Assembly (NCBI GenBank): GCA_001599935.1
Contig: BCIJ01000001.1
Coordinates: 1,799,027-1,863,026 of the forward strand
Source of the DNA: Holtermannia corniformis
Taxonomy: Eukaryota > Basidiomycota > Tremellomycetes > Holtermanniales
Direction: 5' to 3'
Length of the DNA: 64,000 nt
This document shows, in pieces, positions 59,699 to 64,000 of the stretch. Position 1 is the stretch's first letter. The number at the start of each line of letters is the position of its first letter. The translations under genes were made by a program, and so were the position numbers. Below the pieces are notes generated by a model. That model was not told the origin of the DNA. It made no database searches and was given only the letters and a program-made list of their open reading frames with translations.

Positions 59699-62058
59699 AT
59701 GTCCAGCATTCCAAGTGAGTCACCTGCTGCGCGTCCTGCCATCTGACTCTAGCTTTCTGACAGTCAACATCAAGCACGCCGGCAAAGTCTACAGCGTGAC
59801 CCTAGACCCTAACGGGACGGCTCTTGCGTTCAAGGATGCTATCTACCAGTCTACTGGGGTTCCCGTCGGTGGGTTCCTACTCTTGCGCCTACGCGTTACT
59901 CATGTCCGCGCGTATAGACCGTATGAAAGTCATGGTCAAAGGCGGGATGCTCAAGGTCGGTAGCGTACTCGGTCAAAGCAGCAGCTAACCGGTCGACCTC
60001 TAGGATGATGCCGACCTCGCTAAACTGCAGTTCAAGCCTGTAAGCCCTCTATGCGCCGGTGATGTATCACCGCTGACACATAGCAGCTGCAAACAATCAC
60101 TGTTGGTCCAGTCCTGCGCCTGGGTACTCCAATAACGCAGTGCAGGTCATCGGTTCAGCAGGCGAGCTTCCTCAGGCTCCAGCGAAGGCAGCAGTGTTTG
60201 GTCGGTCGCAAGAGGACAGAGGATATTTTACTGACGCGCTGCAGCTGAGGATCTGAATGATTCTGCCATGACCTCGACAGTGGGTCGCTGTGAGATACCT
60301 GGCCGTGCTCATACCCCTGCCCATTATAGTCTCCTGACCCTCCCGGGCTTGTCAACCTAGGCAACACGTGCTACCTCAACTCAACTTTGCAGGTGCTGCG
60401 AACGATACCGGAATTGCCAGACGTGCTCCAGCAGTATGTTCGTTTGTGTCGCACGGCTAATGTGCTGATCATTACAGGCCGATGTCGGAAAGCTCGGCGT
60501 CGAGCTCACGCCTTGCCAAGTCTTTCAAAGCCGTCCTAGGCACCATGGCTCAGATATCGACCGCCTTCCCGCCAATGGTCCTGCTCAGAGCACTGCGTGA
60601 TGTTGTGCCGCAATTTGCGGAACTCGACCGCACAGGACATCACGCCCAGCAAGGTCAGTACAATGTGCATTGACGCACCATGGCTTACCTTGTCGCAGAT
60701 GCAGACGAGGCTTGGACGCAGATTATCACCAGTTTGAACACCACACTCCGTTCACAGACAAGCGATCAATCGTTTATCGATCAATACATGGCGGCCGAAG
60801 TCAAACAGACGTCAGCATCCACTGCGCGTCTGCAATAACTGATATTGATGCAGCCTCTCATGCGATGAGACGGACCAGGAGCCTCCTACTGAGAGACTTG
60901 AAAAAGTTCTCAAACTCACATGTAACATCTCGGCGTCTACAAATTTCTTGCTTTCGGGCATTCTCGACGTGGGTCAGCGCCTTGTTTGAGCTCTCAACCT
61001 AATGATCACCAAACAGAGCTTCGACCAAAAGATTGAAAAGACCAGCCCCACGCTCGGCCGGATGGCCGTTTACAGCCAGTAAGTCCAGAGATGTGACATT
61101 AGTTCCGCTGACCAAGTTGCAGAAAGTCGCGTTTGTCTAGGCTTCCCGTTAATTTGGCCGTGCACCAAGTCCGCTTTTATTGGCGCAGTGACATACAGTA
61201 CGTCGGCCACAATGTTTTGTCAATCCTAACGTACGGAAAGGAAGAAAGCCAAGATCAGTGCGTCATGCTAATGTCATGAGATCGCGCTAACATATGCAGT
61301 GCGAAAGGTCAAGTTTCCTATGCAACTCGATGCTTTGGACCTCGTAAGTCGAATGACTTGCGCACATGGGGCTCACAGGTGATAGGTCACAGATGAACTC
61401 CGTGCCAAGATGACGCCAATCAGCGTAGCCGTCAAGAACATCCTCAAGGCTCGCGATGAGAGGGAAAAGATTTCCAAGCGAGCCAAGACGTCGACTGACG
61501 GCACGGAATCAGTCGAGATCGCCAGGCGCGAGACAGAAGAAGTTCAGGCGCTGATTGCACAATCTGGTCTCACCGACCCAGGCTGCAACCCCAGCGCGCT
61601 GTACGAGCTCTCTGGTGCGGTCGTGCCTCGTACCCACGCAACTGCAGCTGACAACTTGCACAGCGATGGTAACCCACAAAGGCGCTTCCGCAGACTCTGG
61701 TATGTCTCATCAATGATTGCCTCCGAACTCACTTTGCCCAGGTCACTACATCGGCTGGACGCGCAAGACCAACGACGTGTGGTACAAATTCGACGGTGAG
61801 ACAGTGATACCCATCAGCGCACATAAACTCACTCAGTGCAGATGACAAAGTGACAGAGGTGTCCGCGTAAGTCTAAAGCCCGCCGTTGCTATCGGCCTCA
61901 ATAACGGCAATTGCAGCGACAAAGTCGTCAAACTTGATGGCGGCGGTGAAGACTCGGTGGCGTACATTCTGCTTTACAGGTCAGTTTCGGACCGTGTACC
62001 GCGGCCGTGTCGCTCGGCTGTTGACAATGCCGGGCTTTGCAGGGCTGTATCCGTGTAG
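59699..62058 (+). CDS. UBP6: Proteasome-associated deubiquitinase UBP6/USP14
   Basis: Removes ubiquitin from substrates at the 19S proteasome. Exons: 59699..59714, 59764..59868, 59918..59955, 60004..60039, 60087..60101, 60146..60200, 60245..60279, 60330..60433, 60478..60653, 60699..60810, 60854..60968, 61017..61078, 61123..61197, 61241..61257, 61300..61343, 61386..61614, 61664..61699, 61742..61795, 61842..61866, 61917..61979, 62043..62058; 475 aa, all phases consistent. The N-terminal ubiquitin-like domain (KVYSVTLDPNGTALAFK ... MKVMVKGGMLKDD) precedes the Cys box GLVNLGNTCYLNSTLQV (Cys about 114), DADEAWTQII, RLPVNLAVHQVRFYW, and the His box ASADSGHYIGWTR (His about 425) with WYKFDDDKV and SVAYILLYR. 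Length matches the family. Very finely split: 21 exons of 15-229 nt. Confidence 0.96.
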
Positions 62059-62402
62059 CTATTGTTCATGCACGACTGCCTTATTGTTTCGTAAACGAGC
62101 ATGACCAACCCGATAACCTGAACAAAAGGACGGTTGGCTTGACAACCGTGCCTGAAACACATCGACTATTGTTCTCTCATCGGTCCGACTCTGGGCGCTG
62201 CAGACAATACGCACTGAACAATAAGCAACACCGTACACTCGCTTAGGCGCAGTCTTTTGTTCTGCTCTCGGCGCTTGCCGAGGGTTACCGTTGCCAGGGT
62301 ATAAAACTGCGACCATCCTCGTCTCGATCCTCATCAAATCCAACACACACTTCCACCTCTAGTTACCTACCTACACTCTCTCTCTTACTCAAACTCCTTA
62401 CA
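62059..62402 (+). promoter_or_regulatory. Promoter of the pheromone gene
   Basis: A clear TATA box (TATAAAA, 62300..62306) lies about 100 bases before the ATG, with a C/T-rich leader in between. GAACAAAAG occurs at 62120..62128 on the plus strand and again on the minus strand at 62254..62262, and ATTGTT lies near 62166. These resemble HMG-box sites such as the pheromone-response element ACAAAGGG bound by Prf1/Mat2-type factors; the match is approximate. Confidence 0.55.
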
Positions 62403-62522
62403 ATGGACGCCTTCACTGCCATCTTCACCACCTCCAACATCGCCGCCGGCGCCGAGGCTCCTCGCGACCAAGAGACCAAGACGGGCTCGTACGGTGGTTC
62501 GAACGGTTGTGTTATTGCTTAG
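62403..62522 (+). CDS. Lipopeptide mating-pheromone precursor (CAAX protein)
   Basis: A 39-residue ORF in one exon: MDAFTAIFTTSNIAAGAEAP, a short acidic linker, then TKTGSYGGSNGCVIA-stop. The last four residues, C-V-I-A, form a CAAX box for farnesylation, proteolysis and carboxymethylation. The MDAFTAIF start, the small size and the Gly/Asn/Ser-rich stretch before the Cys are the layout of basidiomycete a-factor-like precursors; the NGC end recalls rhodotorucine A. The mature peptide is probably the last ~10-14 residues ending at the Cys, but the N-terminal cut site cannot be fixed. The TAG stop is followed at once by a gtaaga donor, and a 56-nt intron (62523..62578) appears to lie in the 3' untranslated region. 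No second copy seen. Confidence 0.88.
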   Translation: MDAFTAIFTTSNIAAGAEAPRDQETKTGSYGGSNGCVIA

Positions 62523-63085
62523 GTAAGAACTGTGACGTCCTGCTGGCCCGCAACCATCACACTGATTTCCAATATTAGGCATTCTCGTCAACTTCGCGCG
62601 GGGGTGGATCCGGAGGATCTTATATTTAGTTCTATGTAGAATGCATAAGTCGTTCGCACTCGACGTTCTGCTCCAGAACGCTTTTTATCGGCTCTGTAAT
62701 GCACTAGACCACGTGCTACCATGATTTAAGCGGCTTGAACCAGCATGCCTATAACAAGGTCCCATGGAGGAGCCTATCCATCCCCTTTCTCGTTAGACAC
62801 CTGCCTATCCCGCGCCCGCGCGATACGGAGGCGACCAGTGCTCGATTGTCGACCGTCGGTTGACGTGCTACCGGGCACTTCAGCTAGCGTGTGATGCTGC
62901 CAATACCTCAAGACTGCCTGGAGTGCGCGCACATCGACATGAAGTGACGAACCTGACCATACACAGATACACAGGCCGGGTCCTGTACGCCGACATTGAA
63001 AGGTTGAGGTGAGGCTCACATCCATGAACTAGCTATTACGCTACGCGGGCAAACAAGAGCCATGTCGAATCTGAGCGACTGCTAG
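62523..63085. other. Pheromone 3' region and uncertain upstream exons
   Basis: Contains the 3'-UTR intron (62523..62578) and a CACGTG box at 62710..62715. From about 62803, after ctcgttag, an open frame (TPAYPAPARYGGDQCSIVDR ... LQLACDAANTSRLPG ... NLTIHRYTGRVLYADIERLR) runs to a gtgagg donor near 63012. It may be a 5' exon of the next gene, but I could not join it in phase. Confidence 0.35.
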
Positions 63086-64000
63086 CTCCCGCGGCAACAT
63101 TGTTAGGAGATCTGGAGACCATATTACGCCGAGGCAGCCAGCGATCCACACGTTACCCCGAACGTCTCATAAAGCTATTGGGCACGAGATTGCAGGCAAT
63201 TGCCATGGGCGATGATCCTCTGTGCGTACGCGCGCGCGAGGTGCAATCACTGACATATCTCAGGTATATGGATCAGAGAATCAGGCGTACTGCTGCCATT
63301 TTTTGGGCGAATTGGTCAAACAAAGTCTTCATTCGCCAGCTGAAAGACAGCCGACGGATAGAAGACCTGATATTACAATTCGTAACAGCTTCCGCCAAAA
63401 CTCTCCGCAAGGAACCCGAATTGATGGATAGCAATTGGAAGAGTGCGTTACACGCACAAACTTCTGATTTCCTGGATATTCTATCGGACGGCTTGTCGGC
63501 GTGCGCTCCTTCTGCGACAGAGTTGCACGAAAAACTGCGCGCGTACAAAAGCTCCTTGCTCCCATCTCAATCGACACAATCCCAATCTGGTCTTACTCGA
63601 ACATCTCACGCACAGCGGGTAGATCACGAAGGCATCTCCGTTGACGACGACGACGACGACACCTTTGCCGCGATAATGGAAGAATTATTCGAGCTCTCCC
63701 TCTCGGACAGTCGCAAAATGATCCGTCGTTTTCAAGGTTTCTGTACTGCTGAGGTGAGCCGCTTGTACCTCACGAACCCGGGTGAGTCTCATGCAACCTG
63801 GCAGGCCGCTTTGTTCGACTTGAAGGTCAGTTTCACCCAACAGCCACTTCCAACGCGGTGAATATATGTTCAAGGTCTTCAGCTATGTCTACAACGCCTC
63901 AACACCGATAGACCGTATCCGTTCAGCCGGACCAACTTCCCTTGCGAAGACCTGTGGATAGCCTGGCGCACTGCAGAGATTACAACTCTATCACAGCTCA
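63086..64000 (+). CDS. 5'/internal part of an unrecognised gene (runs off window)
   Basis: Probable exons 63086..63221, 63264..63825, 63883..64000, continuing past the window. An acceptor (gactgctag) opens the first. It reads LLGDLETILRRGSQR, LIKLLGTRLQAIAMGDDPLY, RIRRTAAIFWANWSNKVFIR, LILQFVTASAKTLRKEPEL, then an acidic insert (SVDDDDDDTFAAIMEELFEL), and finally DLWIAWRTAEITTLSQL at the edge. The helical character suggests a large repeat or regulatory domain. I do not recognise the family. The true start lies upstream. Its place beside a pheromone gene makes it a candidate mating-type-locus flank, which is only inference. Confidence 0.5.

Follow-up and report, generated by a model that had tools for sequence, protein, structure and literature searches.

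Does the short open reading frame at 62403-62522 (+) of this 64-kb window, the whole stretch of DNA that was analysed, encode a mating pheromone, and if so, in what kind of mating-type locus does it lie? The frame, here called MF, translates to MDAFTAIFTTSNIAAGAEAPRDQETKTGSYGGSNGCVIA, 39 residues followed by a stop codon, and reproduces each feature noted in the initial annotation, namely the 39 codons, the MDAFTAIF start, the tail rich in Gly, Ser and Asn, and the CVIA end. The flanking signals named there are likewise found. A TATA box (TATAAAA, 62300-62306, +) lies 103 bases 5' of the ATG and is followed by a 96-base leader (62307-62402, +) that is 70% pyrimidine and free of ATG. Immediately 3' of the stop codon, GT...AG signals define a predicted 3' UTR intron of 56 nt (62523-62578, +), running from GTAAGA to TATTAG with a CTGAT branch-like motif.

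Small frames with such an ending can be meaningless. The published search pattern for these precursors, M-X(15-60)-C-[ILMVST]2-X-stop (PMC6730849), is loose; MF fits it, and there are two other matches, besides MF itself, in 79,373 bases of nine further loci (of 46), one of which overlaps the window and so contains MF. Four ORFs in the 64-kb window match it, implying that such frames do arise randomly and that the pattern is weak evidence when taken alone. That MF is a functionless product of chance, a CVIA-ended frame in the 3' shadow of the upstream gene UBP6, is nevertheless very improbable. When both the CVIA end and a suitable Met are required, a single ORF in the window qualifies, compared with none in 60 dinucleotide shuffles. 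Across the 20.2-Mb genome (55 contigs) the pattern TGYGTNATHGCNTAR, with TAA or TAG stops, finds eight CVIA-stop sites, and at one of the eight, MF alone, does a Met stand 15-60 residues before the Cys. This sole place falls between UBP6 and STE3, and it carries the TATA box, the ATG-free leader, the 3' intron signals and a set of PRE-like sites.

A search of the genome with the MF peptide (E<=10) gave one match, that is, one copy was found. The string MDAFTAIF had no match in a text search of papers. A start of this type is also a feature of the Cryptococcus alpha pheromone precursor. Compared with the Pfam family PF08015 (Pheromone), the MF peptide gives E=0.58 and 11.7 bits and does not reach the cut-off of 22, and a protein database search with it returned no homologue, in a database that may omit such short proteins. 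The Pfam result is not counted as an exclusion, since a database cut-off is not a biological defining feature and these precursors are short and poorly conserved, as basidiomycete pheromone precursors are described in PMC6730849. Nor are the missing protein matches taken as a sign of novelty, because proteins of this size may be left out of the database. The earlier expectation that genes of this kind escape gene finders agrees with published cases in which gene prediction lacked them or they had to be entered manually, and automated annotation has repeatedly been reported (PMC6730849, PMC9296135, PMC12510652) to miss pheromone genes. Once again such a gene surfaces through reading of the locus, and not through gene finders or Pfam.

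The surrounding genes place MF in a recognisable setting, with the order UBP6 - MF - C2-domain gene - STE3 - STE12. The catalytic part of the UBP6/USP14 deubiquitinase gene, up to its stop, occupies 60339-62058 (+), with the start further upstream. It matches the solved chains of USP14 (2.8e-71) and Ubp6 (7e-66), and its best database match is from Naematelia encephala (59%). The name CNG04540-like occurs on three of the 120 UBP6 matches, among those listed, so this neighbour very probably corresponds to CNG04540, a gene of the pheromone/receptor (P/R) locus of Kwoniella (Cryptococcus) heveanensis. Between MF and STE3 lies the C2-domain gene (PF00168, 5.4e-12), whose 5' part fills 63028-64000 (+), with an approximate 5' boundary, and which runs past the window. 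The window's contig, C1, ends 8.3 kb past the window end, and STE3 and STE12 are in that part.

STE3 (C1:1866556-1867508) is on the same strand as MF and starts 5 kb downstream. It has two matches to the PF02076 profile (E 3.7e-50 and 2.1e-21), and hand splicing gives a 380-aa receptor in a frame without stops. There are 41 database matches at E<=1e-5, the top one with 44% identity over 98%; the best 14 of the 41 are all from Tremellomycetes, with 40-50% identity over 67-98% of the length. A PF02200 search of the genome found one gene, STE12, which lies beyond STE3; its reading continues to C2H2 zinc fingers. MF, STE3 and STE12 are thus clustered on one contig, the arrangement by which a Tremellomycete P/R locus is recognised. 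Pfam searches with 20 of the window's 87 long ORFs found no mating gene; the families matched were everyday ones, among them Dfp1/Him1, HSP70, Cas1p acyltransferase, WD40 and Rad21/Rec8. Further STE3-like fragments occur at C1:649900-653421, where the best match (E 1.1e-7) passes the cut-off but contains one stop; they may represent one or two divergent receptors with no part in mating.

The gene set matches the P/R locus described for Kwoniella. For K. heveanensis the locus is reported to contain STE3, STE12, MFA1/2, CNB00600 and CNG04540, and its precursors to have 39 aa and to end in CVIA or CIIA (PMC2873909). Set against these reported descriptions, MF shares the 39-aa length, the CVIA end (as in Mfa1) and the Glu at the expected start of the mature peptide, and STE3, STE12 and CNG04540 (here UBP6) are linked to the pheromone gene in both. 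In Kwoniella the P/R locus is given as MF, STE3, STE20, STE12, C2prot, DBP10, REI1, ATG7 and NDC80, with UBP6 joining it in clade G (PMC12510652); one pheromone gene together with STE3, STE12, a C2-domain gene and UBP6 is the set held in common with our locus. In K. dendrophila and K. shivajii the locus tags of UBP6 and STE3 differ by three, and in N. encephala a 60,258-base contig is the longest contig for both genes.

There are differences, however. Whereas the Kwoniella locus, as reported, has nine shared genes, the visible block here stops after STE12, at the contig end, where C1:1871315-1871373 is a dispersed repeat also present on C4, C16, C23, C30, C38 and C49; this repeat could be the reason why the assembly breaks here, next to the mating genes. 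STE12 continues to zinc fingers here, compared with the truncated form described for the Kwoniella a2 allele. The Ste20-like gene, reported inside the Kwoniella P/R locus, is here on another contig (C37:16604-16808, 16.6 kb from the contig start), where it is identified by a PF00786 match and by kinase motifs recognised by eye. Contig C37 starts with retrotransposon ORFs, and another homeodomain fragment (C37:29191-29271) lies 12 kb from the Ste20-like kinase.

We conclude, with a probability of about 0.95, that MF is the pheromone precursor gene of a Tremellomycete yeast and lies in its P/R mating-type locus. It is very probably a further member of the known family of lipopeptide pheromones, at the usual site beside the receptor. 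The identity proposed in the initial annotation is thus supported by the position in a P/R locus, the size of 39 aa, the CVIA box and a Glu where cleavage is expected. An alternative would be a prenylated small protein that has a non-mating role and is pheromone-like by resemblance. Many prenylated proteins bear CAAX boxes, as is textbook knowledge, but the length, the cleavage context of the Glu and the P/R-locus position fit a pheromone specifically, leaving such a protein a very slim chance.

Somewhat less remote, yet still unlikely, is a disused gene, correctly traced to a pheromone origin, whose function has since been lost in an asexual or self-fertile lineage. The single MF copy found would suit such a history, and there is a precedent in Cryptococcus depauperatus, a self-fertile species reported to have rearranged MAT genes and to have lost its HD genes (PMC9296135). 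Against it, neither MF nor STE3 has an interrupted reading frame, the linkage of MF with STE3 has been kept, and an HD1/HD2-like pair is present, albeit below Pfam cut-offs.

For the product of MF, the familiar processing steps can be proposed. Once expressed, the 39-aa precursor would be farnesylated on the cysteine of the CVIA box, the VIA tail would be removed and the Cys carboxymethylated, and an N-terminal cut before Gln or Glu would yield (Q)ETKTGSYGGSNGC-farnesyl-OMe. The mature product should, by analogy, be (Q)ETKTGSYGGSNGC with a farnesyl-Cys methyl ester, specified by codons 62469-62510 (+), or from 62472 with Glu as its first residue. The [M+H]+ calculated for the farnesyl methyl ester is 1478.72 for ETKTGSYGGSNGC and 1606.78 when Gln precedes it. 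The prediction of the mature product rests on the Glu start of tremerogen a-13, whose mature form is reported to begin with a Glu that the Cryptococcus precursors have kept as well (PMC2873909), and on the mature Cryptococcus alpha pheromone, printed as QEAHPGGMTLC (PMC6772093). The predicted peptide shares with the latter the Gln-Glu start, the Cys end and the expected farnesyl-methyl ester chemistry, and Cryptococcus precursors are also reported with a CVIA end (PMC2873909). The two differ in the variable middle (ETKTGSYGGSNGC here, compared with that of the printed alpha peptide), and in copy number, one having been found here whereas several are reported for heterothallic Cryptococcus species. 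After export, the mature peptide would act on Ste3 of cells of the opposite mating type, and the linked STE3 would be the strain's own receptor, for the pheromone of its partner.

To which class might this pheromone belong? In a Tremellomycete species two opposite P/R alleles, STE3a and STE3alpha, are expected, and the analysis covered one strain. In a tree of 24 Ste3 proteins, into which 23 of the 41 matches were taken and which has no known Ste3-alpha or Filobasidiales rows, the receptor stands next to Tremellomycete sequences, among them those of C. depauperatus, K. pini and K. shivajii. The C. depauperatus Ste3 is reported as a/A2 class (PMC9296135), and the K. pini and K. shivajii loci are called a2 (PMC12510652). 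With its nearest relatives of a/A2 type, the receptor provides moderate evidence, from a tree that contains no known Ste3-alpha sequence, for predicting MF to be an a/A2-type pheromone. The receptor branches outside the other Tremellomycete Ste3 rows (81/81), not among the a/A2 rows, a placement that raised the idea of a third class of receptor allele. This idea was set aside, since UBP6 is placed equally deep, and divergence of the species therefore explains the position of STE3.

The upstream regions of MF and STE3 suggest how these genes might be controlled. Six sites of the form ACAAWR, resembling HMG-box or pheromone response elements (PREs), are present in the MF promoter region (62061-62402), three on the + strand (starting at 62122, 62204 and 62218) and three on the - strand (right-hand ends at 62087, 62172 and 62260). 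The expectation from shuffles is 0.78, and six were reached in none of 2000. STE3 has three such sites 5' of it, compared with 0.41 expected (P 0.0075), and STE12 shows no enrichment against shuffles (P 0.40). The P values are optimistic because the motif was picked after the promoters had been viewed. In Ustilago the pheromone response element is printed as ACAAAGGGA (PMC3248468), and Mat2 of Cryptococcus, an HMG protein, is described as binding to PREs (PMC3744442). The ACAAWR sites resemble such elements, and may be regarded as candidate HMG-box pheromone response elements; the Ustilago core ACAAAGGG was not found 5' of MF, STE3 or STE12.

How is the mating system of this yeast arranged? 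A divergent HD2/HD1-like pair is located near C2:916-920 kb, on another contig than MF and more than 380 kb from the nearer end of that contig. Both homeodomains score below Pfam cut-offs (0.0072 for HD1 and 0.0028 for HD2, the latter with a 4-X spacer), and the HD2-like homeodomain seems to be split by an intron. The location of the pair on a separate contig suggests that the HD and P/R loci are unlinked, that is, a tetrapolar arrangement, a provisional reading for a pair that scores below the Pfam cut-offs. A fused (bipolar) MAT locus was considered; with the HD-like pair lying mid-contig on C2, no fusion is seen near MF, although C37 has its Ste20-like gene and the other homeodomain fragment within 12 kb of each other.

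What, finally, is the age of this gene block? UBP6 was used to place the fungus, in one tree of 28 of the 120 listed matches and a second of 21 of those 28, from which four long-branched and three Kwoniella rows had been dropped. In both, the fungus falls outside Tremellales plus Trichosporonales, the clade that excludes it being supported at 99/98 and 98/98. It is nearer to these two orders than Naganishia is, with weaker support (93/89 and 88/90). Topology tests weakly reject a grouping with Naematelia (p-AU 0.037) or with Trichosporonales (0.043) and do not reject one with Naganishia, of the Filobasidiales (p-AU 0.153). The STE3 tree, which has no Filobasidiales row, agrees weakly with the outside placement (81/81). 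Such a placement would presumably fit either the Holtermanniales or a lineage on the Filobasidiales side. Among the top matches in the open-licence literature, none dealt with a P/R locus of Holtermanniales. Filobasidiales are reported to branch below Tremellales, Trichosporonales and Holtermanniales (PMC9210288).

The outside placement of UBP6 suggests that the linkage of STE12, STE3 and a pheromone gene may predate the Tremellales-Trichosporonales split. The fuller proposal, which we consider evenly balanced, is that the lineage itself, Holtermanniales-like or near Filobasidiales, predates that split and that the block UBP6-MF-C2prot-STE3-STE12 would be older than both orders. If true, this would favour an early recruitment of STE12 to the P/R locus, an alternative left open in PMC6730849. 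The fungus could also serve as a possible outgroup for timing the entry of STE12, UBP6 and the C2-domain gene into the P/R locus, and MF and the STE3 beside it extend the known pheromone and receptor genes to a Tremellomycete that has no close relative among the database matches, giving this yeast a mating type that can be tested. The base composition also changes along the contig, with a G+C content of 0.527 from window 62000-64000 to the contig end, compared with 0.583 in window 1-60000; a lower G+C content of MAT loci is the subject of a section heading in PMC6730849.
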